A stretch of 57,597 nt of DNA from a virus, in the IMG/VR virus record IMGVR_UViG_3300037119_000577, positions 1 to 57,597 of that record; one strand, given 5' to 3'. Shown piece by piece: positions 5,123 through 57,428 of the stretch; the stretch's first letter is position 1, and every line of letters begins with the position of its first letter. A model generated the notes under the pieces. That model made no database searches. It was given only the letters and a program-made list of their open reading frames with translations, and had not been told where the DNA came from. Made by a program: the position numbers and the translations under genes.

Positions 5123-5159
5123 AAAATCCTCATATAAGGCGGACGGGGGGTGTAGCCTA

Positions 5160-6753: not shown

Positions 6754-6942
6754 CTACCACTGTTTATCGTCCGGAATGATCCAACCTTTAGGTTTCTTTT
6801 TCGGATTCAGTAACTGGGCGGTCTCGCAGCAAAATTGGGGATACATCGCCCACCGACTAGGGTTTAGCCAGATCACGCGGAGTTCTTCGGGTGTGACGTA
6901 TCGCCAAGGATTCAGGGTGTCGAATTGGTGAAGCCAGATCAT
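6754..6942 (-). CDS. CPT-core family micro-protein, 62 aa
   Basis: Begins MIWLHQFD and contains the family core as FCCETAQLLN near residue 38, followed by a Lys/Pro-rich tail. The ATG overlaps the stop of the polymerase C-terminal gene as ATGA. It is one of six family members on the minus strand; three others sit just upstream of the polymerase. Function unknown. Confidence 0.75.
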   Translation of the reverse strand: MIWLHQFDTLNPWRYVTPEELRVIWLNPSRWAMYPQFCCETAQLLNPKKKPKGWIIPDDKQW

Positions 6943-8374: not shown

Positions 8375-9585
8375 TGGCGACCTCCCGCCATACGGCTCGT
8401 GCTAGTCCCGGCAACTTTGATGTCGATATACCAACGATTACAGTGACTTGACGCCGCGTATAGAGCGTCAATCTGTTTCAGTACGATCATGCGCTTCTTC
8501 CGTTTCTGTAACATTAGTCCCGGCTCGCCCCACTGACCCAGTAAACTAGCCTTCGTAGACGGGGCTCCCTTCTTAGTAAAGAACTTGGGCACCATCCCCA
8601 TCTTAATCATAAATAGGTGCACCAGTTGCGCCCCCGATCCGGGATTGAATTTCACTTCCTTGAGTGCCTTCGGGTCCCCGGCGCGGTACTTACGAAGACG
8701 GCCCTCCCGACCCTTGTCGGTCTTAACCTTACTCAACCACTTCTGTAGGCGGTCCTCTTCGACTTCCGCGATCTGAGGGGCGTACGCCGTCAAAAAGCGC
8801 TGCTCAATCTCGGTAATCTCCTTGGCGACGATTTCCCGGTTCTTAAGAGCGAGGGGCCGGTTAATCGGAACGCCCCGGATCTTAGCGCCCACCACGAAAT
8901 CCGCGGTCGACTTGTACAGCTGGTGATCGAGGGACCAGTCGTACCCGATCGTCACGAAATAGTCCGTGATGAACTTATAGAGGCGGAGGGTAATCTCAGT
9001 GTCCGCGACGTTGTAAGTACGCAGAATGTCCGGGGGCAGCCGATCGAGGTACATACCCTCCTGGCCCTTCTTAACCCCGGGCACGTTCGCCTTGATCCAG
9101 TCGTGGGCCTCTTTTTTATGGGAGACGGTTTCACCGAGGATCCGGAGGGCGCACTTAACGAGACCGAGGCCCGCGGTTGGGATCTTTTTAACCTCAGGGG
9201 TCTCCCCGTACTCAATAACAACGGACTCGTCGACCACGACTTCAAACGCGCTCTTGTCGCCCCCGTTATCATACACTTGCGCGAGGCGCATCGTATCGAA
9301 GGCCAAGTCGGGCTGTAGGTGCGGGTATCGACACAGGAAAACGCCCTTCTCGAATTGGTAGTTATGGACTATAAATTGGTAGCTGTCGGCGACAAGCTCG
9401 GCGATACGTTGGCCGACTTCGACTTCACCTACCAAGTACTCTGACCGGATCTCGTCCCCGACGAACTCGGAAAAGGCACACGACATTACCCGGAACAGGG
9501 GCCTGTAGTATTCGGTCGAGGCTCGAAAGGACCCGTCGGGCTGGAGTTCGCCGGTCTCAAAGTCCAAGCATATTATCTTATACAT
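8371..9585 (-). CDS. Family A DNA polymerase, N-terminal part (3'-5' exonuclease and start of polymerase), 404 aa
   Basis: Exonuclease motifs are in order: CLDFETGE (residues 7-14, metal-binding Asp and Glu), IVHNYQFEKGVF, and YNVADTEITL. The polymerase domain starts in the second half and stops right after GTSTSRMAGG, the Thr-x-x-x-Arg motif, followed by two stray residues and a TGA. The ATG at 9585 (MYKIICLDFE) is preferred to the upstream in-frame ATG at 9651, because the upstream stretch is occupied in another frame by a CPT-core gene. Together with 6939-7802 it would make a T7/PolI-type replicative polymerase of about 690 residues. Confidence 0.88.
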   Translation of the reverse strand: MYKIICLDFETGELQPDGSFRASTEYYRPLFRVMSCAFSEFVGDEIRSEYLVGEVEVGQRIAELVADSYQFIVHNYQFEKGVFLCRYPHLQPDLAFDTMRLAQVYDNGGDKSAFEVVVDESVVIEYGETPEVKKIPTAGLGLVKCALRILGETVSHKKEAHDWIKANVPGVKKGQEGMYLDRLPPDILRTYNVADTEITLRLYKFITDYFVTIGYDWSLDHQLYKSTADFVVGAKIRGVPINRPLALKNREIVAKEITEIEQRFLTAYAPQIAEVEEDRLQKWLSKVKTDKGREGRLRKYRAGDPKALKEVKFNPGSGAQLVHLFMIKMGMVPKFFTKKGAPSTKASLLGQWGEPGLMLQKRKKRMIVLKQIDALYAASSHCNRWYIDIKVAGTSTSRMAGGRH

Positions 9586-9695
9586 AAGGTGAACATCTCC
9601 ACCGTGGGGCACATAGTCCGCATCGTAATCGTCGGGTATGTCCGCGACCATCTATAGTAACGGCCAAGTAAGAACGTATCTTCTACCCAATACAT
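9573..9695 (-). CDS. CPT-core family micro-protein, 40 aa
   Basis: Begins MYWVEDTFLL and ends with the core MCPTVEMF and six residues. It overlaps the start of the DNA polymerase gene by 13 bases in another frame, which is why the polymerase start is placed at 9585. One of three family members in tandem here. Confidence 0.75.
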   Translation of the reverse strand: MYWVEDTFLLGRYYRWSRTYPTITMRTMCPTVEMFTLCIR

Positions 9696-9700
9696 TCTTC

Positions 9701-9853
9701 TCACGGGCGCGCCTTAAATGGGTTACGGACGGATTGGGCGAACAACTTAATAGTCGGACAGCATACGTACTGCGCGGATATGCTCCACACCCTAAGCGTG
9801 GGTATGCGCATCCAGTGCGGCCCGTCCGGTACTCCGACGTCTCGCCAAAACAT
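9701..9853 (-). CDS. CPT-core family micro-protein, 50 aa
   Basis: Begins MFWRDVG and has the core VCCPTIKLFA at residues 30-39, followed by a basic tail (SVRNPFKARP). The start overlaps the previous stop by one base (TGATG), showing tight coupling to the gene at 9853. Confidence 0.75.
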   Translation of the reverse strand: MFWRDVGVPDGPHWMRIPTLRVWSISAQYVCCPTIKLFAQSVRNPFKARP

Positions 9854-9972
9854 CAGCGCCTCAACATATTAACGGTGGGGCACGCCGCCGGATAAATGCT
9901 ACCTACGGCAGGACCGAGCCAATATAGGACCCTACCCCCGAGCTTGCCGTATACCCAAATCGACGTTACCAT
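9853..9972 (-). CDS. CPT-core family micro-protein, 39 aa
   Basis: A very short member: aromatic N-terminal half (IWVYGKL, LYWLG) and the core ACPTVNML followed by Arg-Arg and stop. The ATG lies seven bases inside the end of the collagen-like lipoprotein gene. The core ends almost at the C-terminus, so the tail beyond it is dispensable in the family. Confidence 0.72.
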   Translation of the reverse strand: MVTSIWVYGKLGGRVLYWLGPAVGSIYPAACPTVNMLRR

Positions 9973-13502: not shown

Positions 13503-13776
13503 CGTCAGACCTCATCGGGATGTTAAACTTGAGACCACGAACTTTAGCGAATGCTCGAGCCGCTTTCAGCTTAGATGCGAACTTACGTTTATTGTCTAAA
13601 TACTTAGTATCGCGGTAGTCCTTAAGTTCCGCCGTCATCTTCTCGATCTGCTCGTCAGATTTCATAGCCTCGTCTAACCGCTTAATACCCTCGAACAGCG
13701 AGCCAACTAAGTCCACTAGCTCCTCGTCGGTCATGTTTACGAGCCGCGCCTCTTCTAGAATGAGCTTATTTGCCAT
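13495..13776 (-). CDS. Hypothetical helical protein, 93 aa
   Basis: The ATG at 13776 (MANKLILEEA) has GAGG upstream and is preferred to the in-frame ATG at 13818. The protein is strongly charged and predicted helical, possibly a coiled coil, with a basic C-terminal half. Function unknown. Confidence 0.65.
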   Translation of the reverse strand: MANKLILEEARLVNMTDEELVDLVGSLFEGIKRLDEAMKSDEQIEKMTAELKDYRDTKYLDNKRKFASKLKAARAFAKVRGLKFNIPMRSDDE

Positions 13777-13919
13777 GTATGCCTCGGCTTTAAAATGTTT
13801 ATCTCCATCGGGTGCCATGTATAGAAATCAGGCTCTTTAATCAAAAGGCACGTAGGGCAACTCCACCCCCGACTTGTAAAGAACGTCGTATACAGCGGCG
13901 TGGGTCCGCTATACGTCAA
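13755..13919 (-). CDS. CPT-core family micro-protein, 54 aa
   Basis: Starts at a TTG at 13919 inside the 3' end of the endolysin gene. The core is SCPTCLLI at about residue 20, and unusually it is followed by a long tail of about 27 residues. The start codon and its weak binding site make the 5' boundary uncertain. It connects the family to the lysis region. Confidence 0.55.
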   Translation of the reverse strand: MTYSGPTPLYTTFFTSRGWSCPTCLLIKEPDFYTWHPMEINILKPRHTWQISSF

Positions 13920-14331
13920 GATCCGCCCGCCATTTCCGGAGATCGTTTCGGAAGTCTTCGGGGTCAAAATTGGGGCAAGTCTTTCCGGCGTTGAATTCCC
14001 GATGCCCATAAACGTCCTTACTCTTAAGGCCGAATTCGTCCAAAAGGTCTGATACCAGTTCATACATTGACTCCCGTTGCACTTCAGTCATCCGGTCTCG
14101 CCCGATCCAACAAATACCGATAGACTCGGCGTTCTTCCCCTCGCAATGGGCTCCGCGTTGGTCAACCGGACGCCCATCTTCGATCGCGCCATTGCGACGG
14201 ATAACATAATGATATCCCACATCTTTCCAGCCGCGCCCTTTAACGTGCCATTCGCGGACCTCTCTTACGCCGACGTCTAGAGTATCGGGGCTGTCCGACG
14301 TATGCAGGATAATCATGGAAATTTTACGCAC
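13909..14331 (-). CDS. N-acetylmuramoyl-L-alanine amidase endolysin (T7 lysozyme type), 140 aa
   Basis: Matches the Amidase_2/PGRP fold: IILHTSDSP (His 10, zinc ligand), VGYHYVIRRNG, then VYGHREF (second zinc His) and KTCPNFD (zinc Cys), the same order as in T7 lysozyme. The length of about 140 fits that family. It cleaves the bond between muramic acid and L-Ala in peptidoglycan. The GTG at 14331 lies behind AAGGAG and overlaps the upstream gene. No signal peptide is seen, so a holin would be needed for release. T7 lysozyme also inhibits RNA polymerase, but no such phage polymerase is seen here. Confidence 0.9.
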   Translation of the reverse strand: MRKISMIILHTSDSPDTLDVGVREVREWHVKGRGWKDVGYHYVIRRNGAIEDGRPVDQRGAHCEGKNAESIGICWIGRDRMTEVQRESMYELVSDLLDEFGLKSKDVYGHREFNAGKTCPNFDPEDFRNDLRKWRADLDV

Positions 14332-14832: not shown

Positions 14833-16293
14833 TTATGATTCTGCCCAAACTATAGACTCGACGAAGGACTTAGGCAACTTGTCCTTATACTGGCGAATGA
14901 GTCGGCTAAAGTTGCCGTCCAGAATGTAGGTCTTCGAAAAATCATCAGGATCCCGGGTGGACCGCCCGCACGCCTGGATCACCACTTTAAGCGTCTCGAG
15001 CGCGTACCAATCGTCCCCATCCTGGAGGGCCTTCCTCTTCGCAACAATCGGATCTTTGAGGTCGGGGAACGGGAGCTTAGGTATAATATTCAGGCGGCAC
15101 AGATCGCCCTTCAAGTCGATCCCCTCGGCGCACCCCGACGCCAGAAACACGCCCCCGTGCTGCTTAAAGAAGTCTAGCTTTTCAATCTTGTTCGTGGAGT
15201 CATTCACGATCACGGGCCCCGAAAAGTGGGGAGCCAGCTTCTTGGACATCGAGTACGTCGTATGGACCAAAGTATTAAGGCCCAGATTCGCCGCCAAGAT
15301 CTTCTCGATTTCGCCCACGATCTTCCGGGGGTCCGCCTCCCAATTCATCCGGAACGGGGCGGGCTTGAAGTACACGGGCCGATTCTCTTTGGGGATCGGG
15401 GAGGGCGCGTCTAGGAATTTAACGTGCCGATCGCCCACCAGATCGAGAATGTCGGACTGCATCAAGGTTCCCGACATTAAGATCAACTTCTTGGCTCTTA
15501 ATAGTTTATCAACGACGAACCGCGGAGGCCGGATGGGCTTAATATTAAGATACCGATCGGGCCTACCCCGGTACTTACCCGAATCGATCCACACCGCGTA
15601 ATTCTCGGGGGCCTCCTCCAGGCCGCGGAGGGTCATCCGGATTTGCTCGAGTTCGCGGGTTATTTCGGCGAACCGTGTGGGTTGGGCCTTATAGTAAATC
15701 GCGAGCGCGGACAGCTTTTTGATCTGATCCTGGAGCCACCGACCGAGGAATACGGTATTCGTGACGGTCTCGGGGAACTTGAACATCGAATACCGGAGCC
15801 GAGATCCGCACAACAAGAGGAGCATCGACGGAAGGGTGTGAGCCTCGTCGACTATCAGGACGTTCGGGTCCTCCCACCCCTCTGCCTGCGTAAGATAATA
15901 AAGCGACATAGGGTTAAAGAACGTCGGTTGCGTAAGGGCCCGCTGCTTACAAACGGTATAGGGGCAGTCCTGACACGCTTTTTGCTCAAGGGTGTTAGTC
16001 CAATCGTGGCACGAATAACCCGACGAGCAGTTATAATGGGTCTTCCCCTTCAAGAAATTCTTCTTTGGGTATGAAGCGGCGTACTGGTCGATCAGAAGGT
16101 TCGACGGCGTTATAACGTGGGCCCCGGTCACCAGGGAGATTGCCTGCGCTAAGGCGGACTTCCCGAGAGCGACGGGGAAATTGCCCGCGAGGATCGGGTG
16201 CTTCCAGTTTTCGGCGAACCACTCAAGAACGTCCTTCTGAACAGGTCGAGGAACGCGCGAGGTGCCATCGAAGTATTTAAGGAAGTCTACCAT
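14833..16293 (-). CDS. XPD/DinG-like superfamily 2 helicase, 486 aa
   Basis: A Walker A-like segment (FPVALGKSALAQA), DEAH box (LIVDEAHTLPS), a motif III-like LILMSGTL and motif VI (QACGRSTRDPDD) fit the Rad3/XPD/DinG group. Four cysteines between motifs I and II (NCSSGYSC and CQDCPYTVC) match the position of the iron-sulfur domain of that group. These enzymes unwind DNA 5' to 3'. The ATG at 16293 follows GAGG and lies four bases from the stop of a CPT-core gene. It is the likely replicative or recombination helicase, as no DnaB-type helicase is seen. Confidence 0.85.
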   Translation of the reverse strand: MVDFLKYFDGTSRVPRPVQKDVLEWFAENWKHPILAGNFPVALGKSALAQAISLVTGAHVITPSNLLIDQYAASYPKKNFLKGKTHYNCSSGYSCHDWTNTLEQKACQDCPYTVCKQRALTQPTFFNPMSLYYLTQAEGWEDPNVLIVDEAHTLPSMLLLLCGSRLRYSMFKFPETVTNTVFLGRWLQDQIKKLSALAIYYKAQPTRFAEITRELEQIRMTLRGLEEAPENYAVWIDSGKYRGRPDRYLNIKPIRPPRFVVDKLLRAKKLILMSGTLMQSDILDLVGDRHVKFLDAPSPIPKENRPVYFKPAPFRMNWEADPRKIVGEIEKILAANLGLNTLVHTTYSMSKKLAPHFSGPVIVNDSTNKIEKLDFFKQHGGVFLASGCAEGIDLKGDLCRLNIIPKLPFPDLKDPIVAKRKALQDGDDWYALETLKVVIQACGRSTRDPDDFSKTYILDGNFSRLIRQYKDKLPKSFVESIVWAES

Positions 16294-16463
16294 ACGTTCC
16301 TCTTTCCTAGCTGAATGAACATATCTATCGTGGGGCACGCGGGAATAATTTTAATAGAGGCGGGCTGCCTAAGCCTGGCTAATTGCGCGCGGTCACGCTT
16401 ATAATTACATCTAATCCATATACCTTGGTACGCCGTCAACCACCCATCTTGTGGGTCGATCAT
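16287..16463 (-). CDS. CPT-core family micro-protein, 58 aa
   Basis: Begins MIDPQDGWLT and carries the core PACPTIDMFI at residues 41-50, followed by QLGKRNVW. Its ATG overlaps the RuvC-like gene stop (ATGA), and its own end carries the helicase ribosome binding site. So it is translated between the resolvase and helicase genes. Confidence 0.75.
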   Translation of the reverse strand: MIDPQDGWLTAYQGIWIRCNYKRDRAQLARLRQPASIKIIPACPTIDMFIQLGKRNVW

Positions 16464-16951
16464 CGCGCAGCCCAACATTTGTAGATCATTACGCTATCCG
16501 AAATGTCATCCGACACAATGTGGTGCGTGACCATATCGAATCCCGTTTCCGCAAGGGACCGGCAACCCTTAATATCCGCGGTCGGTCCGGCAGCCCCATT
16601 CTTCTTGGCCCACTGCTTCCACGACGAAGAGTAAATGAAGGACGCGGACTCCGACATCTTTGCATGGATCCGGGGGCAGCAGAGGAACGACCCGATCACA
16701 ATAAGGACCAGCCGAGACTTAACGCCCTCGAACAGGACTTTCTGAACGTCCAAACCGGGGGGCAGGTGCTCGTTAAGGAAGTCCGTAAGCTGCTCGAGCT
16801 GATACTGGACACGCCGGGAGAAGGGGTCCGTGGGCTTCCGCGAGCGGAGGACCGTGGTCGCGATCAGGTTGCCGTTGAGCCACAGGGACACCCCCGCGGC
16901 ATTTGACGCCTGATCGATCGAGAGGACGTAGCCAGCTTCCTTAGATTTCAC
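16460..16951 (-). CDS. RuvC-like Holliday junction resolvase, 163 aa
   Basis: Begins with a typical RNase H-fold strand (VLSIDQASNAAGVSLW, catalytic Asp), then VLFEGVK (Glu), and late acidic residues in DDISDSVMIY matching the final Asp pair of RuvC. Such phage resolvases cut branched DNA before packaging. The GTG at 16951 has AAAGGA upstream. Confidence 0.8.
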   Translation of the reverse strand: MKSKEAGYVLSIDQASNAAGVSLWLNGNLIATTVLRSRKPTDPFSRRVQYQLEQLTDFLNEHLPPGLDVQKVLFEGVKSRLVLIVIGSFLCCPRIHAKMSESASFIYSSSWKQWAKKNGAAGPTADIKGCRSLAETGFDMVTHHIVSDDISDSVMIYKCWAAR

Positions 16952-48089: not shown

Positions 48090-49439
48090 TTATTGAATCT
48101 TGGGGACCCAATCATTGTAGTCTTTATACTTGCGCATCAAGACCTTGTAACAGGACTCCATATAATGCCGCAGCGTATCCTTATCTTCCGCTTTTACGAT
48201 GAAAGAATCGTGAACCCCTAAACAAGGTCTACCGGCGCGCTTGAACGATAACATAATATTATTAGCCAGTTGCGAGTCTAGATATTGTAGGTCAAGCCCT
48301 ATACCTGTAAAAAATTTATCTGCAATCGGGGCGTGCGCGCCTATTAGCAAATCGATCAAAGACTTTGCCGGGTCGTTGCAGTCCGACACACTTAACCCAT
48401 CATGCAAGATGATACCCTTCTCCTTTAAACCGCTTACAATGGCCTTAATCGCAACCTGGCGCGACGTTGCGTTAAAGACGCACATCAGGGCCACTTTCGC
48501 CGCCTCGCGGTTTAGCGGGCCAATTCCGGCTGCCTGGTAGGGATCTCCGACTACAGGTGCACCTTTAATATGGTAGATCATCGTCGGATGCAAAGAGCTG
48601 TAGTCTAACTCAACCGTAGGCTCCCCATCGATCTCTATAGTGGCTCGCTCCAGCTTACGCAGGTTCTGGAAGTCCGCGTAAAACCTACCCCCCTTATGGA
48701 ACCTCCCCATGAATACTCTATTAAATGATATAGACGCCGGTTCCAAATCTATAGATTTCCTATTTGGGTTACTTATCAGTAATGATTGGTCTAATGTACT
48801 AAGTCTTCTATGTAGGAGGGGGAGGGAGAGGGGGGGAGGGGTGTACCTATACTTATAGGATAGATTACTATCATTAATTAGTCCTAATAACTGATGAGTC
48901 TCTTTAATCTTTCCAGATAAGTAGTACTTCATTAACTTACCCGTATCAGGGTTCCGTAGGAGGAGGCGCCCCTTTTCCTTTATTTGTTCGGTACTTAGGG
49001 TGTTTACGTACTGAGCCAGCAATCGGTTAAACTTAACCGTAGGCCAAAGACCAGTACGGAGGCCCTTTTCGTAACCTGGCGTTTTGAATCCCTTTTTCTG
49101 TTCTAGAAAACCGTCTCGCTCGAGGGTGTCGATCGCTAAGACTAATGCGGCTAGGTTTATATGTTTGTAATTGTACACCTTTGGGTCCTTAACATAGTCC
49201 GACGCGGCCCGCGAGACCACGACGCGGCACTCCGACGCCTGTTGCTCGGAGATCAAGGATGCGCACGCGAGATTGAATATGAGACATGTATACGCGAGCT
49301 GCGTTTCGGGACCGGGACCAACGTTAAATTGTCCAATGATGTTGCGGGATAGGTCGCCGATTTCGCCCCGGGACATCGAGAAAAAAATGAATAGGCCGTG
49401 GGGGTCTGTGCCAGACTTCGGTAAGGTATCAATACTCAT
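48090..49439 (-). CDS. TV-Pol-like polymerase of superfamily A, 449 aa
   Basis: The C-terminal half has a polymerase palm pattern: RFYADFQNL, then VELDYSSLHPTMIYHIKG (motif A-like, Asp followed by SSLHP), DPYQAAGI, a Lys-containing helix (REAAKVALMCVFNATSR, motif B-like), LDLQYLDSQLANNIM and GVHDSFIV (motif C-like His-Asp). This matches the TV-Pol family described by Iyer and colleagues, related to superfamily A DNA polymerases and T7 RNA polymerase and proposed to be prim-pol-like. The N-terminal half is unassigned. It is divergent from the plus-strand array, far from the other polymerase. Confidence 0.7.
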   Translation of the reverse strand: MSIDTLPKSGTDPHGLFIFFSMSRGEIGDLSRNIIGQFNVGPGPETQLAYTCLIFNLACASLISEQQASECRVVVSRAASDYVKDPKVYNYKHINLAALVLAIDTLERDGFLEQKKGFKTPGYEKGLRTGLWPTVKFNRLLAQYVNTLSTEQIKEKGRLLLRNPDTGKLMKYYLSGKIKETHQLLGLINDSNLSYKYRYTPPPLSLPLLHRRLSTLDQSLLISNPNRKSIDLEPASISFNRVFMGRFHKGGRFYADFQNLRKLERATIEIDGEPTVELDYSSLHPTMIYHIKGAPVVGDPYQAAGIGPLNREAAKVALMCVFNATSRQVAIKAIVSGLKEKGIILHDGLSVSDCNDPAKSLIDLLIGAHAPIADKFFTGIGLDLQYLDSQLANNIMLSFKRAGRPCLGVHDSFIVKAEDKDTLRHYMESCYKVLMRKYKDYNDWVPKIQ

Positions 49440-49538: not shown

Positions 49539-49703
49539 ATGATTTTATGGGTGCAGTTTAGAACGCCGAATACTCCCGATAGACTCGAGGGCCGGCACGG
49601 TCGGTGGGGGTTCGACACGGCCGGGGCCCTTTATCCGGCCCGGGGCTGGGTTAACGCGAGATACGTACCCTACTGCCCCACCGTCGGCATATTTTGGGCA
49701 TAA
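49539..49703 (+). CDS. CPT-core family micro-protein, 54 aa
   Basis: First gene of the plus-strand array. GGAGG precedes the ATG. It begins MILWVQF and ends PYCPTVGIFWA, so the core is almost at the C-terminus. The middle (residues 10-40) is Gly/Arg-rich. Confidence 0.75.
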   Translation: MILWVQFRTPNTPDRLEGRHGRWGFDTAGALYPARGWVNARYVPYCPTVGIFWA

Positions 49704-49718
49704 TTAAGGAGTCCGTGT

Positions 49719-49895
49719 ATGTGGGTTCATAGTGGCGGCCCCGATTCGCCGGTTAAGTTGCTCAGGTCGGGAGATATGGCGGGCCTACAAAATCCGATGT
49801 ACGAACCTTTCTCGGCCTGGCTTGCGCGCACTTGTTCATGGGACTTCTGCTGCCCCACCGCGCAGCTTTTCAATCGGGGAGGGTCGAACCTGTGA
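49719..49895 (+). CDS. CPT-core family micro-protein, 58 aa
   Basis: Behind TAAGGAG with eight bases to the ATG. Begins MWVHSGG; core FCCPTAQLFN at residues 43-52, tail RGGSNL. Its TGA overlaps the GTG of the next gene. Confidence 0.76.
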   Translation: MWVHSGGPDSPVKLLRSGDMAGLQNPMYEPFSAWLARTCSWDFCCPTAQLFNRGGSNL

Positions 49896-50128
49896 AAATC
49901 GTGCGGCCGATTCGTATGATGCGGGTAACGGCGGACGTAGGGCCAAAATACTGGTTGGTTAAGGTCGCGCCGCCCGGGCGTACGAACTGGATGCACGGAC
50001 TCTATTACTTTATTATGCGCGATGGGGGTAGTAAGCTTGATACGATTAGCGAACGCGCTCTAATTGAGTTCGGCTATCGGCCCGTTTGCGAACTCCAGGC
50101 CCTTTTCGCTATTGAGGAGACCCCGTGA
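49892..50128 (+). CDS. CPT-core family protein, longer variant, 78 aa
   Basis: GTG start overlapping the previous stop (GTGA), with GGGAGG upstream; the frame is open further 5' but the start decides. Core variant VCELQALFAIEETP at the C-terminus, with Glu-Leu in place of Pro-Thr. N-terminal half is basic and beta-like. Confidence 0.72.
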   Translation: MKIVRPIRMMRVTADVGPKYWLVKVAPPGRTNWMHGLYYFIMRDGGSKLDTISERALIEFGYRPVCELQALFAIEETP

Positions 50129-50373
50129 AATTCTTCCCCACGCAAGTCGACGACATAATTATGAATTTAGGCGGTAAGTACTTCTTGGTCGGAGAGCGTA
50201 TGTATAAGGAGAAATACTCCTTAGGGGCGCCGTGGGACCTCGTATCGCCGTCTGGGAGTTCGCCGTTCGGCCCTACAGAGTGGGACCGGTGGCGGAAGAG
50301 TTACGATCATCGTCTGATACGGTGTGATACGGTAAAGCTATTTTGCGGAGGGACCGATGTACGTAATCCATAA
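50125..50373 (+). CDS. CPT-core family protein, longer variant, 82 aa
   Basis: GTG start overlapping the previous stop, GAGGAG upstream. Core IRCDTVKLFCGG near residue 66. An N-terminal VDDIIMNLGGKYFLVGE segment suggests two beta strands ahead of the core. Confidence 0.74.
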   Translation: MKFFPTQVDDIIMNLGGKYFLVGERMYKEKYSLGAPWDLVSPSGSSPFGPTEWDRWRKSYDHRLIRCDTVKLFCGGTDVRNP

Positions 50374-50536
50374 ATCAGATGGGCGCGTGGAAAGGTTGTA
50401 CCGGGGAGACTACGGACAATTTTGGCGTGCCGGAGTGGGTCCGCATCATGTACGTCCGCTAAAATTGTGGACGTTCTATTGGTACGTTCACATTTGTCCC
50501 ACGGTGGAGATGATCATATCTAAGGAGAATTTCTAA
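50357..50536 (+). CDS. CPT-core family micro-protein, 59 aa
   Basis: GGAGGGACCG precedes the ATG at 50357, inside the previous gene. Core HICPTVEMII, with Ile in the last aromatic position, followed by SKENF. Ends in a TAATG overlap. Confidence 0.75.
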   Translation: MYVIHKSDGRVERLYRGDYGQFWRAGVGPHHVRPLKLWTFYWYVHICPTVEMIISKENF

Positions 50537-50739
50537 TGCGGATCGGTGATCTTCAAGTGGGCGATATTATTTGGGAAACCGAGTCCGGACTACTTAAAGG
50601 GGGCCTAGTTCTGAATTCTCGTCATTATATTTGTGAGACGAATCGTTTGGACCTACCCGCTCACGACCTAGATATTTCCTATCTGCGTGTAGTGCGGTGC
50701 CCGCTCTTGACGAAACTTTTCCCGGGGAGTCCGCTTTAA
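50536..50739 (+). CDS. CPT-core-like protein, divergent, 67 aa
   Basis: Starts by TAATG overlap. Core is a variant, RCPLLTKLFPGSPL, with an extra residue. The N-terminal DLQVGDIIWETESG is similar in style to the gene at 50125. Last member before the MoxR gene. Confidence 0.65.
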   Translation: MRIGDLQVGDIIWETESGLLKGGLVLNSRHYICETNRLDLPAHDLDISYLRVVRCPLLTKLFPGSPL

Positions 50740-50830
50740 AATTATGTTCTAAAGTTTTTCCGCGCGGGGTCGATAAGAAGTAAGTGAGTTGCGAAAGTCC
50801 ACTATTAATATCTTTACCGGAGTAACGTCG
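50740..50830 (+). other. Leader before the MoxR gene
   Basis: A 91-base gap in an otherwise overlapping array. It contains a T-rich stretch (AAAGTTTTTCC), a TATTAATATC word and GGAG ahead of the ATG at 50831. An internal promoter is possible but no clear -35/-10 pair was found. Confidence 0.35.
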
Positions 50831-52069
50831 ATGAATCTTAAAGAGTACCGCGAGGCGCTGCCCCTACTGTTCCAGGCACGCGTAACGTCACTTTGCTGGT
50901 CATTTCACGGAGTTGGAAAGAGTTCCGTTCCGCAACAATTTGCGGACGAGGGGGGCCATAAGCTAGTCAATTACCGTCTCGGCAATGTGGAGGCCGGGGA
51001 ACTTCTAGGTATCCCGACCGAGGTTATTGACCAGTACAATTCGGCCAATAAAGTCGCCACTCGCAACCTAATGCCCGAGTGGCTTAAAGATATGATCGCC
51101 TTTTGTGTAGCTAATCCGGATAAATATGGCATTCTACACTTGGACGAGATCAACCACTGCAGAAAAGACATGCAGTCATTCGTTTTCCAAATGTCCCTGG
51201 ATCACCGCCTGCACGAAACGGACTTCCCACCGAACCTTCATGTGATTTGTTCAGCAAACCCCCCTACGGACGACTACGCGGGCGTGTTCGACTTTTCCAA
51301 CAAGGCGCTCTTAAGCCGCTTCTGTCATATTAAGCTTCAGCCCACCTCCTCGGAATGGCTCGAGTATGCGCGCTTCAAAGAGTTCGACGCCGACGTGGTC
51401 GACTATATTGCTCTTAATCCGGAGCAGCTCGACCCGGTCCTTCAGCCGTTCTCCGTGGACGAATACGCGAACCGGAACCGCCGAAGTTTCGAGTTCTTCT
51501 CGAGGCTCCGGAAGCTGGGCGCCTCGAATGAGCTTCTGATGGGTATCATCGGTTCGGCGAACGTACTCGCTTTTAATAAGTGGCTCGACGAAGCCCGGGA
51601 AAAGTCCATTGTGGGTGCGGACATTCTCGACGGCTATTCGAAGGTCCAAGATCGGGTGCGCGAACTTGTGAAGGCGGGTAAAATCGCCTCCCTGACCACG
51701 ATAACCGCGTCCCTGGTGTCCGCAATCGAGCCGATCCCCGAGGCGGCCTTCGTCGACCAAGTGGACCGTGTGCGCAATGTGGCGGCCTTTATTTGCGACT
51801 TGCCCCCGGACATCGGTTGGGCCGCTGCGAGTCAGATCGTATTCCTTCCCGCCGCCCACTACGGTCCCGACAAGCCCACCGGCAAGGAGCCCACCCAAAC
51901 GCCCGGATCGATGTGGGGCCCCCACACGTGTCCGGAGCTTTACGAAACCGTAAAAGCGTGGAAGGAAGCGGGCATCGACAAGAAGCACCAGGCCGCGGAA
52001 GAGACGAAAGCCAGAGAGGCCGAAGTTGCCGCAGAAGCCCCAGTCGCCAAAAAGAAAAAGAAGGCTTAA
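50831..52069 (+). CDS. MoxR-type AAA+ ATPase, 412 aa
   Basis: Walker A is FHGVGKSSVPQQ, Walker B ILHLDEINHC, sensor 1 VICSANPPTDD, and an arginine-finger-like LLSRFCHIKL follows. Together these are typical of the MoxR subgroup. The C-terminus ends in a Lys/Ala-rich tail (AEAPVAKKKKKA). The ATG at 50831 is preferred to the in-frame TTG at 50789. MoxR ATPases act with VWA proteins; one lies 370 bases downstream. The pair may remodel or disassemble protein complexes in the infected cell. Confidence 0.85.
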   Translation: MNLKEYREALPLLFQARVTSLCWSFHGVGKSSVPQQFADEGGHKLVNYRLGNVEAGELLGIPTEVIDQYNSANKVATRNLMPEWLKDMIAFCVANPDKYGILHLDEINHCRKDMQSFVFQMSLDHRLHETDFPPNLHVICSANPPTDDYAGVFDFSNKALLSRFCHIKLQPTSSEWLEYARFKEFDADVVDYIALNPEQLDPVLQPFSVDEYANRNRRSFEFFSRLRKLGASNELLMGIIGSANVLAFNKWLDEAREKSIVGADILDGYSKVQDRVRELVKAGKIASLTTITASLVSAIEPIPEAAFVDQVDRVRNVAAFICDLPPDIGWAAASQIVFLPAAHYGPDKPTGKEPTQTPGSMWGPHTCPELYETVKAWKEAGIDKKHQAAEETKAREAEVAAEAPVAKKKKKA

Positions 52070-52086
52070 TCCTTTTAGGAGATCTC

Positions 52087-52299
52087 ATGTATATTATGTT
52101 GTATGTTATTGTACCTATCGGCTACAACGATAAGACAGACTGGGTCGATTTTATGGACGTTCAGTGCGCGGGCCCCTTTGATACTGAGGAGGCGATGCAC
52201 GAATTCGATATACCGCTATTAAGTGGTACCTGCGCCCCGCTTAAATTTTTCCGCCTAGATCCTGCGACGGGCCTATACGCGCCGTATCTTCCAGAATGA
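52087..52299 (+). CDS. Divergent CPT-core-like protein, 70 aa
   Basis: AGGAG precedes the ATG. It contains GTCAPLKFFRLDP near residue 48, which keeps the Cys and the Leu-x-Phe-Phe spacing but lacks Thr. The N-terminus (MYIMLYVIVPIGYND) is hydrophobic. It is coupled to the clear family member at 52296. Membership is tentative. Confidence 0.55.
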   Translation: MYIMLYVIVPIGYNDKTDWVDFMDVQCAGPFDTEEAMHEFDIPLLSGTCAPLKFFRLDPATGLYAPYLPE

Positions 52300-52439
52300 G
52301 AGTCTACTGGTCTCGCATCCGCGGCGACTACGGCCGCAACGTTGAGAATCCGGGTATGCGGGAGCTTTTCTGGGAGCATATCCCCTTAGAAGAAATCGCG
52401 TGCCCCACGGTTGGCCTATTTTTAAGGGAGTACTCTTAA
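52296..52439 (+). CDS. CPT-core family micro-protein, 47 aa
   Basis: ATGA overlap at its start and TAATG overlap with the VWA protein gene at its end. Begins MRVYWSRI, core IACPTVGLFLREYS. Being sandwiched between the two ATPase-system genes ties the family to that system. Confidence 0.77.
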   Translation: MRVYWSRIRGDYGRNVENPGMRELFWEHIPLEEIACPTVGLFLREYS

Positions 52440-53593
52440 TGGATATTAATCCCCTCGAGCGCGCGATCATGCACTTGATTCGCGAGGAGCGCTGGTACGC
52501 CGAAGTGATCATGCAACTGGACCGTAAGGAGGACCCCAAAATCCCGGGAGGCACCGCCGCGGTGGGTATTCGCCCCCGGCCCACCCTCTACTATCATCCG
52601 GATCTATTTGCGAATAACGACTTACAGACGAACGTCCAACTCCTTAAACACGAAGTGGTCCATCTTCTTAATCAGCACTTAACGCGCACGGGCGGAACGA
52701 TGAACCGCCTCCAGAACGCGGCTGCGGACCTCGCCGTTAATTCCTTTATCGACGGCTTTCAGGGCCTTAAGACGAAGGACCCCGACGGCCAGTGGACCTT
52801 CAAGAAGGGGTGCACGGTCGAGAATATGAAGGACCAGTTTCCGTCATTGATCAAGGGGCAGACTATGGAGTGGTACATTGCCGCTCTCAAGCAGGACGGC
52901 GCAACCGAGGGGGGTGCTCCCGACACGTCCGACGATCACTCGAAGTGGTCCGAGGGCGACTCGTCCGGGTCCGAACTCGAGGAGTACGCCGTCAAAGGGA
53001 TCATGCAAACCGCGGTCGAGCGCACCCAGCGCGCCGGGGGGCAGGTTCCCGACGGTCTTCGGGACCTCCTTAAGAGCTTGCTATCAAGTAAGAGCCAGTG
53101 GCAGCGGGAGCTTCAACGGTTCCCCCAAGATGCTGAAATCGTGGGCACTGAAGATACGTGGCGCCGCAGGAATCGGAGGTTGGGATCTATAGTTCCCGGG
53201 TCCAAGAAGGTCCGCAAAGTCAAGGTGTGCGTGGGTATTGATGTATCCGGATCGGTGGACGGGCCTCTGTTGCAGCTTTTTTACGCGGAAATCGACAAAA
53301 TCGCCCAACATGCCGAAGTGGTAGCGAGTTTCTTTGACCATTGCGTGCAAAAAACGCTCCCGTGGTCTGAAGTGCGCAAACTTTCCAAAATTCCGGGCGG
53401 GGGCGGTACCTGTTTTCAGCCGATGCTCGACGAGGCCACAAAGATTAAAGCTGATGGGCTAATCATGTTAACTGACGGCATGAACGGGGACACGATCACC
53501 CGGCCGAAGTACCCGGTAATCTGGGCCGTCCCGGAACAGTACAACTACGTGCCCCAATTCGGAAAGTTGGTCAATATTGCGGATCCGAAATGA
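52439..53593 (+). CDS. VWA domain protein with metallopeptidase-like N-terminus, 384 aa
   Basis: The N-terminal half has HEVVHLLNQH (an HExxH zinc motif plus third His) as in the DUF2201-type metallopeptidase domain. The C-terminal half is a VWA domain: VGIDVSGSVDG (MIDAS D-x-S-x-S), GGGGTCFQPM (Thr) and MLTDGMNGD (Asp). The middle is acidic and Ser/Gly-rich. This family is the usual partner of MoxR AAA+ ATPases. The start is the ATG at 52439 (MDINPLERAI), coupled to the preceding micro-protein gene. Confidence 0.84.
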   Translation: MDINPLERAIMHLIREERWYAEVIMQLDRKEDPKIPGGTAAVGIRPRPTLYYHPDLFANNDLQTNVQLLKHEVVHLLNQHLTRTGGTMNRLQNAAADLAVNSFIDGFQGLKTKDPDGQWTFKKGCTVENMKDQFPSLIKGQTMEWYIAALKQDGATEGGAPDTSDDHSKWSEGDSSGSELEEYAVKGIMQTAVERTQRAGGQVPDGLRDLLKSLLSSKSQWQRELQRFPQDAEIVGTEDTWRRRNRRLGSIVPGSKKVRKVKVCVGIDVSGSVDGPLLQLFYAEIDKIAQHAEVVASFFDHCVQKTLPWSEVRKLSKIPGGGGTCFQPMLDEATKIKADGLIMLTDGMNGDTITRPKYPVIWAVPEQYNYVPQFGKLVNIADPK

Positions 53594-53727
53594 AAATATG
53601 GGGATGGGACGCTACGTATAATTCGTGGGTGTTAATCGGACGTAACGCGTGTCGCGCCTGGCCCATTTGGAGTGGGCACTTTATAGCATGCCCTACTGTA
53701 GCTCTACTAATACAGGATCCGAAATGA
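53590..53727 (+). CDS. CPT-core family micro-protein, 45 aa
   Basis: ATGA overlap with the VWA gene. Begins MKIWGWDAT, core IACPTVALLIQDPK. The last codons and following start (GGATCCGAAATGAAAA) duplicate those at the VWA gene end, suggesting the gene arose or moved by recombination there. Confidence 0.76.
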   Translation: MKIWGWDATYNSWVLIGRNACRAWPIWSGHFIACPTVALLIQDPK

Positions 53728-53864
53728 AAAACGGAATTCAGGGTGTCGTCTGGTGGCGCGAGTTCGGTGATTATCCGAACCCATGGCGGTCCAGGTTTAT
53801 GGTGGACTCCGGAATTGCTGAACGGCTCTGGTGTGAAACGTGCAAACTGATGGGGACTAAATGA
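53724..53864 (+). CDS. CPT-core family micro-protein, CxxC form, 46 aa
   Basis: ATGA overlap. N-terminus MKNGIQGVVWWREF; core LWCETCKLMGTK, with a second Cys giving CxxC. Coupled at both ends. Confidence 0.76.
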   Translation: MKNGIQGVVWWREFGDYPNPWRSRFMVDSGIAERLWCETCKLMGTK

Positions 53865-54013
53865 TTTTTCGCTCAAAAAGTGTTTGGTGGCGCCCTTTTA
53901 ACGACCCACAAGCGGGGCCGGAGACGTGCCCTTACGATTTCTACACCAACTCGTACGTCGCCGAGGGTCTATACTGTCCCACGTGTAAGCTTTTCGCCAC
54001 TCGAGGCACTTAA
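53861..54013 (+). CDS. CPT-core family micro-protein, CxxC form, 50 aa
   Basis: ATGA overlap at start, TAATG at end. Begins MIFRSKSVWWRPF, core LYCPTCKLFATRGT. The N-terminal VWWR motif resembles the preceding gene, a sign of local duplication. Confidence 0.77.
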   Translation: MIFRSKSVWWRPFNDPQAGPETCPYDFYTNSYVAEGLYCPTCKLFATRGT

Positions 54014-54150
54014 TGTACTGGTTCACCATAAATGGGGGGCCTGAATGGGAATATTATATACCCGGGCGCTCCGGCGACACGGTCTACAGCAACGAAACGA
54101 TATGCGAAACGTGCCGACTCTTTTTACGCGAGTCTACTCATAATGCTTGA
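54013..54150 (+). CDS. CPT-core family micro-protein, CxxC form, 45 aa
   Basis: Begins MYWFTINGG, core TICETCRLFLRESTHNA. Its stop overlaps the ClpP-like gene start by eight bases. Third CxxC member in a row. Confidence 0.77.
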   Translation: MYWFTINGGPEWEYYIPGRSGDTVYSNETICETCRLFLRESTHNA

Positions 54151-54679
54151 CCAAATACACGAATTTAACATCGATCGCCGTAAGCGCACTCTCTATTGCT
54201 TATACGAGTCCATCGACGGCGCGGCGGCGAATCAATTCCTTAAAAATCTTGATTACCTCAATCGCACCAAGGGCCGGATCCGCGTATACTTTTCCACCAG
54301 CGGCGGTTCGGTGATCGACGGTCTCACGATGTACGAGGCGATCCGGCGGTCCGCCAATCCCGTAGATATCATTATTACCGGCGCCGTCCAGTCGATCGGG
54401 GCGTTTATTATCCAAGCCGCCCATCGCCGCCTGATTGAGCCCACTGCCTATATCATGTATCATTCCGGGACGTTCCAGACTTCGGAAACCGCCGTGGACG
54501 AGGTCGCTAAAGAGGCCTTGTTTACTCGCGACCAATTCTCGATGATCGACTCCTTGATGTATGCGCGTATCAAGCCAAAGATGTCCCTCGATGCGTTTCG
54601 GGAAGCCGTGAGGAGATCTATTTGGCTTGATGCTAGGCAAGCTTTGAAGGCGGGATACGTGGACGAGGTGCTTAAATGA
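54143..54679 (+). CDS. ClpP-like serine protease, 178 aa
   Basis: FSTSGGSVIDGLTMYEA (oxyanion loop), GAVQSIGAFIIQAA (nucleophile Ser), AYIMYHSGTF (His) and DARQALKAGYVDEVLK (C-terminal signature) fit the ClpP fold at the usual length. No signal peptide, so cytoplasmic. The ATG at 54143 is chosen; the frame open to 54032 overlaps the neighbour. Embedded in the CPT array, it may degrade or process substrates delivered by host chaperones or by the MoxR/VWA pair. Phage prohead proteases of this fold exist, but it is far from the capsid genes. Confidence 0.82.
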   Translation: MLDQIHEFNIDRRKRTLYCLYESIDGAAANQFLKNLDYLNRTKGRIRVYFSTSGGSVIDGLTMYEAIRRSANPVDIIITGAVQSIGAFIIQAAHRRLIEPTAYIMYHSGTFQTSETAVDEVAKEALFTRDQFSMIDSLMYARIKPKMSLDAFREAVRRSIWLDARQALKAGYVDEVLK

Positions 54680-54957
54680 AAACTCTTTGGCTGTGGGCGG
54701 ATCCGCTGTCCGATAATGACAGCCCAAGAGCCACGTCGAATGCCGGATTGACTATAGGCGAACGTCGATTCGTCAAAATTGCGCAAGATAACGACAGTCA
54801 TATCAATGATCAAGCCGTTAAGCACGCCAACCATGGTTGGATCACCTCCAACACCATCGGAGTGCGCCTCGATCCGAATTCGAGCAGTTCCGCCTGGTGG
54901 GTTGCGCGAGAGAACTTGTCGATCTGCTGTCCAACCCTTTTTCTGATGGGTATCTAA
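54676..54957 (+). CDS. CPT-core family protein, longest variant, 93 aa
   Basis: ATGA overlap with the ClpP-like gene. Begins MKTLWLWADPL; the core ICCPTLFLMGI is the C-terminus. The 70 residues between are polar. The longest clear member. Confidence 0.72.
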   Translation: MKTLWLWADPLSDNDSPRATSNAGLTIGERRFVKIAQDNDSHINDQAVKHANHGWITSNTIGVRLDPNSSSSAWWVARENLSICCPTLFLMGI

Positions 54958-55194
54958 ATGTGGTATCATTATATAGACTCGAAAACACCAATGCTCCGGG
55001 CCCTTCCAACCGATAAGATCGGCGCGCGTGCAGTTAGTGAGTTTATCAGTACGCCCGCTTATAGGACCAAGTACATCTGTCTACGAACTTTCCGCAACGA
55101 CCCGACGTCCGCAGCCTTTTATGAACGCCGTTACTATGAGGCCTTCTGCCCTCTGGTGCGCTTAATGGACGAGGTAGCCCGTGGTGTGGGTTAG
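54958..55194 (+). CDS. CPT-core family protein, 78 aa
   Basis: ATG directly after the previous TAA. Begins MWYHYIDSKT; core variant AFCPLVRLMDEVARGVG. Basic middle part. The next gene starts 11 bases before its end. Confidence 0.72.
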   Translation: MWYHYIDSKTPMLRALPTDKIGARAVSEFISTPAYRTKYICLRTFRNDPTSAAFYERRYYEAFCPLVRLMDEVARGVG

Positions 55195-55339
55195 GACAAA
55201 TCATGGTGTAATCTGTGCAGTACGACATTCGCAAAACGAGTACGGCGGATATAAATATGTCAACTCGCGCGTGTCGTGGGATTTTGCGAAAAGTTTCAAG
55301 GTCTACTGCCCAACTTCCGCAATGTTATTCGGAGGTTAG
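55184..55339 (+). CDS. CPT-core family micro-protein, 51 aa
   Basis: GTG start within the preceding gene, GAGG upstream. Begins (M)WVRTNHG, core VYCPTSAMLFGG at the C-terminus, with one extra residue. Opening WVR is shared with the next gene. Confidence 0.74.
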   Translation: MWVRTNHGVICAVRHSQNEYGGYKYVNSRVSWDFAKSFKVYCPTSAMLFGG

Positions 55340-55342
55340 CCG

Positions 55343-55489
55343 ATGTGGGTCCGGTTCAGTCACGTGAGCGATGCGGTGCGGTCATTCTGCGTCAATTGGG
55401 ACATCTTTAATACATGTTATAAAAACAAGTCTACGGTCCTAAAGTTTTGCTGCGAGACTGCCGATATGTTTAGAGTGGGAGGTGACTAA
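55343..55489 (+). CDS. CPT-core family micro-protein, 48 aa
   Basis: GGAGG lies upstream. Begins MWVRFSHV; core FCCETADMFRVGGD. Ends with a TAATG overlap into the amber-containing copy. Confidence 0.76.
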   Translation: MWVRFSHVSDAVRSFCVNWDIFNTCYKNKSTVLKFCCETADMFRVGGD

Positions 55490-55644
55490 TGTTTTAGTGG
55501 CGCGCGGGTCCCGGAAAGCACTTAAACGGGAAATGGTACAACTTCGAATACGCTAAAGCTAATGCCGTAATAGTTTCCGGTCAAGAAGTGTGCCCGACCG
55601 TCCGCCTGTTCGTGAGGATCTGGGATGTGGATGTATCACCGTAG
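55489..55644 (+). pseudogene. CPT-core family copy with amber codon at position 3
   Basis: ATG TTT TAG TGG, then an uninterrupted frame (WRAGPGKHLNGKWYNF) to the core VCPTVRLFVR and a stop. Other copies have Trp at this place (MFWR, MFWY, MYWF), so one G to A change explains the TAG (55495-55497). No in-frame ATG follows, so the copy is broken unless the amber is read through. Confidence 0.75.
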
Positions 55645-55789
55645 CGACCCCCTGCAATTCGGTAAAATGCAGCCGATGTACGAATATCGCTATATTACGT
55701 TAAGTGTAAATCAGTATTACCAGATTTCCGGATCGTCTAAGATATTCACGTACTTCTGCGATACGTGCGAAATGTTGCGAGGCGCCTGA
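55625..55789 (+). CDS. CPT-core family micro-protein, CxxC form, 54 aa
   Basis: AGGATC upstream of the ATG at 55625. Begins MWMYHRSD; Tyr-rich middle; core YFCDTCEMLRGA. Its start is inside the end of the amber copy, so it does not depend on that copy's first stop for coupling. Confidence 0.75.
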   Translation: MWMYHRSDPLQFGKMQPMYEYRYITLSVNQYYQISGSSKIFTYFCDTCEMLRGA

Positions 55790-55959
55790 TGTGGATCTTG
55801 GCGGGGGGTATGTTGGGAAAGGTGCGCGCCGATCTGCGGGATCATTGGCCACATATTTACGTTGCGGAAATGGTGTACAAGTTTCGCGGATATTCGACAA
55901 GTCTACGAGTGGATGATTTCATATTCGTGTGCCCAACCGTTGAACTATTTAAGAGGTAA
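55789..55959 (+). CDS. CPT-core family micro-protein, 56 aa
   Basis: TGATG overlap. Begins MWILAGGML; core FVCPTVELFKR. Last member before the unrelated 113-aa gene. Confidence 0.76.
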   Translation: MWILAGGMLGKVRADLRDHWPHIYVAEMVYKFRGYSTSLRVDDFIFVCPTVELFKR

Positions 55960-55962
55960 CTA

Positions 55963-56304
55963 ATGAATCTCAGTAAAATGCTTAAGAGAGTCAAGAAGCG
56001 CGAAGCTCTAAAATTGGCTGGTCATCTCGAATCTTTGGGGGCCGCCTTCTGCCGCGATCAGGAGATCCCGCCCACCGACGCGATGCTGATCTCCAAGCGG
56101 CGAGAAGACGGGTCCACAGAGTACTTCTTTGAGCGCAAGATCGATAAGGTGGACCTTAACGAACTCCACGACGATATCCGCCTAGTGTTCGACTTTGCCT
56201 TTAAGAAGTCGTGGGGCCCCGACGTGACCGACGAGGAGGCCGAGCAGTTAAAATCGGTCATGGAAAAGTACCGCGAGGACTATGAATCCCAGGAGACCAA
56301 ATGA
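55963..56304 (+). CDS. Hypothetical protein in the CPT array, 113 aa
   Basis: Not a CPT member. Basic N-terminus (MLKRVKKREALKLAG), then an acidic, helical C-terminal half (KVDLNELHDDIRLVFDF; ending DYESQETK). Preceded by AAGAGG. Coupled to the next micro-protein by ATGA. Function unknown. Confidence 0.68.
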   Translation: MNLSKMLKRVKKREALKLAGHLESLGAAFCRDQEIPPTDAMLISKRREDGSTEYFFERKIDKVDLNELHDDIRLVFDFAFKKSWGPDVTDEEAEQLKSVMEKYREDYESQETK

Positions 56305-56444
56305 TCGTTATCTGGGAGTACGCCGGTAAAATTTCCCACCGATATACGTGGACGGACGTGACCTATGTGCGCGCCTCCTACGCAATAGGTCCGCACCACT
56401 GGACCCCCTGGTGCCCTACGGTGGCGCTGATGGTGGGCCTATGA
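56301..56444 (+). CDS. CPT-core family micro-protein, 47 aa
   Basis: ATGA at both ends. Begins MIVIWEYAG; core PWCPTVALMVGL is the C-terminus. Confidence 0.76.
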   Translation: MIVIWEYAGKISHRYTWTDVTYVRASYAIGPHHWTPWCPTVALMVGL

Positions 56445-56605
56445 GGTACGTTGTATGGTTTAAATGGTCCGGCGATCCCGGAATCCGCGGAAGCGGGCTA
56501 CCGGCGTTCTATCAGTGCGATCCTATCTCGCATAACGTGCGCGAGGGATTGCGGGTCCCCTGCTGCCCAACCATCTCCTGCTTCAACTACAAGAGTCGCA
56601 TATGA
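56441..56605 (+). CDS. CPT-core family micro-protein, 54 aa
   Basis: ATGA at both ends. Begins MRYVVWFKWSG; core PCCPTISCFNYKSRI, with Cys in the Leu position. Confidence 0.75.
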   Translation: MRYVVWFKWSGDPGIRGSGLPAFYQCDPISHNVREGLRVPCCPTISCFNYKSRI

Positions 56606-56769
56606 AGCCCTGGTCCATGTGGTTGTGGGACTGTATCAGGGGCGATTGGCGATGGGTCGACGCGGGTAAACTGTGTCACGACATTCCACCGCACCTGGTG
56701 TTCGACGCGATCAGAAACCATAACTCGGTGATCCGGATCGCGTGCCCCACCACACGGCTACTCGTTTAA
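56602..56769 (+). CDS. CPT-core family micro-protein, 55 aa
   Basis: Begins MKPWSMWLWDC, the most Trp-rich start; core IACPTTRLLV is the C-terminus. ATGA overlap with the previous gene. An intergenic gap with a promoter follows. Confidence 0.76.
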   Translation: MKPWSMWLWDCIRGDWRWVDAGKLCHDIPPHLVFDAIRNHNSVIRIACPTTRLLV

Positions 56770-56795
56770 TATCATTAACTATTTAACATTAATAC

Positions 56796-56825
56796 TTGAC
56801 AGAGGTTATTTTTGGGTGATATAAA
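56796..56825 (+). promoter_or_regulatory. Sigma70-type promoter inside the CPT array
   Basis: TTGACA (56796-56801), 18 bases, TATAAA (56820-56825). The spacer holds ATTTTTGGGTG as in the promoter at 245-274. It would serve the last four micro-proteins. The TTG start at 56812 lies inside it, so a transcript from here would use a later start or begin at the next gene. Confidence 0.6.
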
Positions 56826-56967
56826 GAACAAATATCGGTTGTGGTTAGGCCTCGCGGCAGAGTACCGCGGGCACGGTATCATCTACGCGCACGGGTTCAG
56901 ATCCTGGGTTAGTGCGTCAACCTGGTTTCCGGCCTGCTCCACGGTCGAGATCTTCGGTGGCATATAA
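56812..56967 (+). CDS. CPT-core family micro-protein, 51 aa
   Basis: The TTG at 56812 has GAGG upstream; another in-frame TTG at 56839 (giving MWLGLAAEY) would fit the promoter position and the M-W habit of the family. Core PACSTVEIFGGI. Confidence 0.65.
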   Translation: MGDIKNKYRLWLGLAAEYRGHGIIYAHGFRSWVSASTWFPACSTVEIFGGI

Positions 56968-57136
56968 TCACCTGTGGCTATCGCGCGGTAAGCGGGTCCG
57001 CACTCGTCGGGATAGGTACTTTAAAAACTTCTGGGACGAGTTGGAAGATACTTGCCTATATCTCCAGGCGCCCGGCCCCGATCGATTGGCGTGCGACCTC
57101 TGTTACCTTTTCCTGAATAACGAGGATACCCGATGA
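56957..57136 (+). CDS. CPT-core family micro-protein, CxxC form, 59 aa
   Basis: GTG start 11 bases inside the preceding gene. Begins (M)AYNHLWLSRG; basic middle; core variant LACDLCYLFLNNEDTR. Confidence 0.7.
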   Translation: MAYNHLWLSRGKRVRTRRDRYFKNFWDELEDTCLYLQAPGPDRLACDLCYLFLNNEDTR

Positions 57137-57282
57137 ATAATTCCCTATATATGTACTGGTGCGTTTACAAGGGCCAAGTTATTAAGATCGAGAACCCGCG
57201 TACCCGATCGGGCTTCTATTTTAAGCGCGAGGAGCAAGTGTGCGAAACGATTCAGCTATTCTTCGTGGGAGACTTCCGCTAA
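57133..57282 (+). CDS. CPT-core family micro-protein, 49 aa
   Basis: ATGA overlap at start, TAATG at end. Begins MNNSLYMYWCVYKG; core QVCETIQLFFVGDFR. Confidence 0.76.
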   Translation: MNNSLYMYWCVYKGQVIKIENPRTRSGFYFKREEQVCETIQLFFVGDFR

Positions 57283-57428
57283 TGTTCTGGTATCTCGAAC
57301 ACCGGATCGGCGATAATATGCGTAAACCTTACAAGTATTTAGGCCGCCCTTCTACGAGTCAAGTCTTTTATTGGTTCCATCCTTCCTTGGTTCCCCTCTG
57401 TTTGACGTGTAAACTCTTTAGTGTTTGA
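57282..57428 (+). CDS. CPT-core family micro-protein, CxxC form, 48 aa
   Basis: Last gene of the window. Begins MFWYLEHRIG; core PLCLTCKLFSV is the C-terminus. Confidence 0.76.
   Translation: MFWYLEHRIGDNMRKPYKYLGRPSTSQVFYWFHPSLVPLCLTCKLFSV

Follow-up and report, generated by a model that had tools for sequence, protein, structure and literature searches.

A family of diverged micro-proteins with a conserved cysteine core close to the C-terminus in a tailed phage genome

The viral record IMGVR_UViG_3300037119_000577, whose full 57,597 bases are referred to here as the window, carries an array of very small genes whose products share a short core motif close to the stop codon. The virus is a divergent tailed phage with a bacterial host, and matches were found to terminase, portal, major head protein, pieces of a DNA polymerase, and helicase. 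Its large genes lie on the minus strand except in the region from 49.5 to 57.4 kilobases, where 30 genes are read from the plus strand. Twenty-six of these (positions 49539–57428) are candidate members of a family with the core C-[P/E/D]-T-Φ-x-[L/M]-[F/L/M]; the other four encode an AAA+ ATPase, a DUF2201/VWA protein, a ClpP-like protein, and a protein of 113 amino acids (aa). Six further candidates on the minus strand bring the total to 32. This set came from a six-frame search that was independent of an earlier list. A preliminary description had reported 26 coupled tiny genes in the array, and the same number was recovered on the plus strand, with adjacent reading frames overlapping at 21 of 29 junctions. 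The median length is 54 aa, and most members are, as had been stated, shorter than 60 aa (23 of 32).

Membership in the following inventory is based on core composition plus a leave-one-out profile unless marked otherwise. The array opens with micro-genes of 54 aa (49539..49703, core CPTVGIF) and 58 aa (49719..49895, CPTAQLF), followed by one of 70 aa with a variant core and moderate support (49916..50128, CELQALF), which may instead start at GTG 49892, overlapping the preceding stop codon, and would then be 78 aa long. Next come micro-genes of 82 aa (50125..50373, CDTVKLF) and 59 aa (50357..50536, CPTVEMI) and a doubtful member of 67 aa (50536..50739, CPLLTKLF), for which the leave-one-out profile is unsupportive. 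The AAA+ ATPase gene (50831..52069; PHROG 1297), whose relatives include N4 gp24-like ATPases of the Schitoviridae, is separated from the gene for the N4 gp25-like, VWA-like/DUF2201 protein (52439..53593) by a second doubtful member, equally unsupported by its profile (70 aa, 52087..52299, CAPLKFF), and a micro-gene of 47 aa (52296..52439, CPTVGLF). Four copies, of 45 aa (53590..53727, CPTVALL; its start junction lies within a direct repeat of 16 nucleotides, nt), 46 aa (53724..53864, CETCKLM), 50 aa (53861..54013, CPTCKLF), and 45 aa (54013..54150, CETCRLF), precede the ClpP-like protease gene (54143..54679). After it lie copies of 93 aa (54676..54957, CPTLFLM), 78 aa (54958..55194, CPLVRLM), 51 aa from a GTG start (55184..55339, CPTSAML), and 48 aa (55343..55489, CETADMF), a copy with an in-frame TAG at codon 3 (55489..55644, CPTVRLF), and copies of 54 aa (55625..55789, CDTCEML) and 56 aa (55789..55959, CPTVELF). 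Beyond the 113-aa protein, a non-member without a family match (55963..56304), the array continues with micro-genes of 47 aa (56301..56444, CPTVALM), 54 aa (56441..56605, CPTISCF), 55 aa (56602..56769, CPTTRLL), 42 aa from a TTG start (56839..56967, CSTVEIF), 59 aa from a GTG start with moderate support (56957..57136, CDLCYLF), 49 aa (57133..57282, CETIQLF), and 48 aa (57282..57428, CLTCKLF). The 42-aa copy had been listed from 56812, and a start at TTG 56839 (M-W-L-G) is more likely. On the minus strand are micro-genes of 62 aa (6754..6942, CETAQLL), 40 aa (9573..9695, CPTVEMF), 50 aa (9701..9853, CPTIKLF), 39 aa (9853..9972, CPTVNML), and 63 aa (16287..16478, CPTIDMF), together with a third doubtful member of 102 aa (13755..14063, CPTCLLI), whose leave-one-out score is weak.

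The core is far more abundant than chance would give, and the observation of a family is confirmed. When a strict core was defined as C[PED]Txx[LMI][FLM] at no more than 25 residues from the stop codon of an open reading frame (ORF) no longer than 120 aa, 22 were found in the window and 17 in the array region, compared with a mean of 0.05 (maximum 1) and with 0.01, respectively, by chance, as judged from 60 dinucleotide-resampled windows. No strict core occurs on the plus strand outside the array, and the remaining five lie on the minus strand in plausible small genes. Among the 31 ungapped cores, the cysteine at position 1 is invariant (31/31) and is followed by P (19 copies), E (6), or D (3) at position 2 and by T at position 3 in 27. 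Positions 4 (V 12, C 7, I 4, A 3), 6 (L 20, M 7), and 7 (F 19, L 6, M 4) are apolar, position 5 is polar in most copies, and a median of 5.5 residues (range 1–27) separates the core from the stop codon.

Leave-one-out profiles were scored against 2,898 control ORFs; 18 members scored above all of the controls and 29 of the 32 were outscored by no more than 10, a comparison that is partly circular for the core, the candidates having been picked by core and the controls not. The three genes without support (50536–50739, 52087–52299, and 13755–14063) are the doubtful members named above; thus, of the at least 32 micro-proteins with a fixed core that had been claimed, 29 are supported. The N-terminal tryptophan is a part of the family signal that is independent of core selection: in agreement with the aromatic start noted in the preliminary description, W occurs within residues 2–12 in 26 of the 32 copies, and its frequency there is 9.9% versus 3.7% further along. 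A profile built from 29 copies found no additional convincing copy in the window. Taken together, these results show that about 29 of the copies are paralogues that have diverged within a single family of small proteins, whose consensus is M-x(0-8)-W ... W/Y ... Φ-x-Φ-C-[P/E/D]-T-[V/C/I/A]-(polar)-[L/M]-[F/L/M]-x(1-27)-stop. Outside the core and W, the copies are extremely diverged and nearly unalignable; the products are soluble, contain 15.5% aromatic residues, and have no long hydrophobic stretch.

This extreme divergence beyond the core and W, in short, tightly packed genes with soluble products, favors an explanation in which the array is an anti-defence repertoire, each copy blocking another host defence and the core serving as the folding nucleus of a micro-fold rather than as a docking site. 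However, a fold nucleus should not need an invariant cysteine, the core cysteine is the only one in 10 of the 32 copies, and no convincing PADLOC or PHROG relationship was found; such a repertoire is a possibility that ranks a close second among those weighed here, and a tentative one. A CxxC pattern had been reported in about eight copies. It is present, in seven of the 31 ungapped cores, but a second functional cysteine is weakly supported: a functional pair is unlikely because position 4, which takes V, C, I, or A, appears to be a small apolar site that tolerates cysteine as one of several such residues. With this and the lone cysteine of 10 copies, the CxxC pattern is unlikely to be a metal or redox site. 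For zinc-binding micro-proteins, which would need two or more Cys/His pairs, a count confined to cysteines argues, through these 10 copies, against a site made of cysteines. In thioredoxin-fold proteins (ArsC, Spx, and glutaredoxin), a CxxC or CxxT motif stands at a helix start and opens the domain. The micro-proteins resemble these in the succession of strand, Cys, Pro/Asp/Glu-Thr-Cys/Val-Lys, and helix; nevertheless, their motif lies so near the end that too little is left for the fold. With the second cysteine in a minority of copies and no profile match, thioredoxin-fold CxxC proteins were rejected as a model.

Several features indicate that the micro-genes are translated and constrained as proteins. 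Of 26 starts, 17 have a Shine-Dalgarno-like 4-mer upstream, versus 8% of other ATG or GTG codons in the same region, and the overlapping genes are probably co-translated. The guanine-plus-cytosine content by codon position (0.49/0.47/0.60) follows the same kind of pattern as in the large genes (0.57/0.44/0.65), in a weaker form. Furthermore, the core codons for Cys, Pro, Thr, and Phe vary as they do in the remainder of the micro-genes (chi-square p 0.07–1); the variation is synonymous, and therefore it is the peptide, not the DNA, that is conserved. This bears on the idea that the core is a nucleic-acid element, or a leader-peptide or arrest sequence, that is translated incidentally. The position of the core near a stop codon and near the following start would suit such an element; however, its synonymous positions are free, its distance to the stop codon is far from fixed, Rfam gave no match, and most copies sit before another copy rather than before a regulated gene. 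This explanation is already disfavored and very improbable.

It has also to be considered that the paralogues are selfish or under relaxed constraint: cassettes would have spread by junction duplication, with little benefit, and would be held in frame through coupling. An identical 16-mer, GGATCCGAAATGAAAA, stands at the stop/start junctions preceding 53590 and 53724, and the longest repeat obtained by random placement in 300 trials was 12. If the 53590 cassette that lies between them were gained or lost, both neighbors would stay intact, and removal of one cassette restores a perfect junction. A second point in favor is the copy at 55489–55644, which reads ATG TTT TAG TGG, with TAG as the third codon directly before the conserved W, and is possibly broken. 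Recoding of TAG in this copy was rejected: TAG terminates six micro-genes and four other genes, and when read-through of the six was considered, five extensions looked meaningless and the sixth would fuse copy 55184 to copy 55343. TAG is an ordinary stop codon in this genome. In addition, the micro-genes use rarer, less well adapted codons than the large genes do, with ATA, CTA, and AGT raised roughly twofold or more (ATA usage is 0.25 versus 0.11). However, the junction repeat is a single case and not a rule, and the core is kept as amino acids in nearly all copies, including the invariant cysteine, which relaxed copies would lose. Selfish accumulation is thus considered improbable.

Searches for relatives are in keeping with the claim that the family is undescribed. 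Profile searches of PHROGs, Pfam, NCBIfam, and PADLOC gave no convincing match (no more than one member per family, all weak), and a profile search of PDB sequences gave none up to an expectation value (E) of 10. For a second array, one single-core and two tandem-core patterns in IMG/VR and one tandem-core pattern in GTDB contigs gave chance matches only, each pattern being limited in reach, as it fits only a few copies of the present array, and records very close to the window possibly being absent from the collections; tblastn with four copies against INPHARED gave chance-level matches up to E = 10. The phage family phrog_33053 (43 residues) resembles copy 53724–53864 over 11 residues that include CETCKLM, near the phrog C-terminus (E = 0.011), but this concerns only one of the 32 members, and significance is lost after 32 tests. 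Copy 57282–57428 has an N-terminal match to phrog_34438 (E = 0.0022) and a tblastn match to gp30 of Arthrobacter phage Tank (E = 7); the latter lacks the core, lies among tail genes, and is probably due to chance.

Searches with the large proteins in IMG/VR or INPHARED mostly gave no relative and otherwise distant ones only. With the ATPase, the major head protein, and the phrog_4756 protein as queries against IMG/VR contigs, no related genome was found; the helicase yielded one relative (27%), without cores, and a polymerase fragment 34 distant loci, none with an array. The DNA polymerase gene (6939–9651, minus strand) is split into pieces at 8371–9651 and 6939–7823; between them an ORF of 194 aa (7790–8374) has a Cys/His pattern that by eye appears homing endonuclease-like. 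The phrog_4756 protein (48090–49439, minus strand) has distant relatives in Vibrio, Pseudoalteromonas, Aeromonas, and Rheinheimera phages, sometimes at two or three places in one phage genome, and contains an HDSF motif that suggests a polymerase-like enzyme. A collagen-like protein with GXY repeats (237 aa, 9966–10679, minus strand) has a lipoprotein-like stretch at its N-terminus. A run of 16 G (63–78) lies close to the record's left end, and a long low-complexity repeat at 5089–5375 reads RPRPRP on the plus strand and V/G-rich on the minus strand.

The large genes within the array raise the possibility that the micro-proteins are adaptors or regulators of the co-encoded AAA+ ATPase, VWA protein, or ClpP, the core binding the machine and the variable half delivering substrates. 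These three genes do sit within the array, adjoining or overlapping micro-genes. However, six copies of the family are located elsewhere in the window, and no family member was found near the pair in six regions searched (five from Schitoviridae and one from a Thermus phage), where small ORFs lack the C-[PED]-T-x-x-[LM]-[FLM] core. Therefore, the ATPase/VWA pair does not need the micro-protein family, and this role is about as improbable as selfish accumulation. The link to MoxR, VWA, and ClpP proteins drawn in the preliminary description follows from neighborhood, and these proteins are candidates only. Among known systems, the small early genes of N4-like phages (Schitoviridae) are one of the closest: there, too, the gp24 ATPase/gp25 DUF2201 VWA pair is set among many short hypothetical genes. 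The rest of this virus is only distantly related to those phages. The genome has two ClpP-like proteins, at 54143–54679 (plus strand) and 10643–11365 (minus strand), the latter apparently with an N-terminal hydrophobic segment.

Two attempts with AlphaFold gave no confident fold (pLDDT, the predicted local distance difference test score, of 55 and 61). Both low-confidence models place a helix at the core, and the second has strands at residues 2–5 and 13–16, in the N-terminal half; a helix at the core with N-terminal strands or a hairpin is thus suggestive only. Foldseek with a weak AlphaFold model found no match.

Given these findings, the mechanism ranked first, and held tentatively, is that the micro-proteins may be adaptors or inhibitors with a shared C-terminal docking helix and diversified N-termini. 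The array genes fill one transcription direction of the phage, and the outliers lie in the replication region. In this model, each product would consist of just two parts. The N-terminal one would be an aromatic segment that may form a hairpin beginning M-x-W; in the C-terminal one, the invariant cysteine would cap an amphipathic helix of few residues (PTΦx[LM]F). This constant helix would dock on one common partner, for which neighborhood offers the ATPase/VWA pair or ClpP, or would mediate dimerization. The N-terminal half, being diversified, would touch different host targets, the outcome being a repertoire against variable host proteins. It should be noted that several points weigh against this mechanism. 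Because the core-to-stop distance varies so widely, docking would have to be independent of a free C-terminus; slow divergence of old paralogues would give the same picture as adaptive diversification; pLDDT never exceeded 61, hence hairpin and helix are suggestions; and no orthologous array was found in accessible collections. The wider proposal, that some 30 interchangeable micro-proteins, each with a constant docking element and a free recognition half, come and go as cassettes at start/stop junctions and give the virus a modular set of tools against host proteins that vary, is doubtful, more so than the docking mechanism itself.

We know of no phage multigene repertoire of the constant-plus-variable type, and a limited literature search gave no report of such a strategy. 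Clustered small phage proteins are known already; what appears to be new, as judged from sequence, is a single family of paralogues, large and diverged, whose core can be defined. Short phage genes of obscure role are abundant but mostly single and unrelated, whereas here about thirty form one family. An anonymous gene cluster thereby becomes testable, through a single core mutation, a search for a common partner, and numerous naturally occurring variants. Should the constant-plus-variable reading hold, it would represent a multigene repertoire strategy that is, to our knowledge, new to phages.
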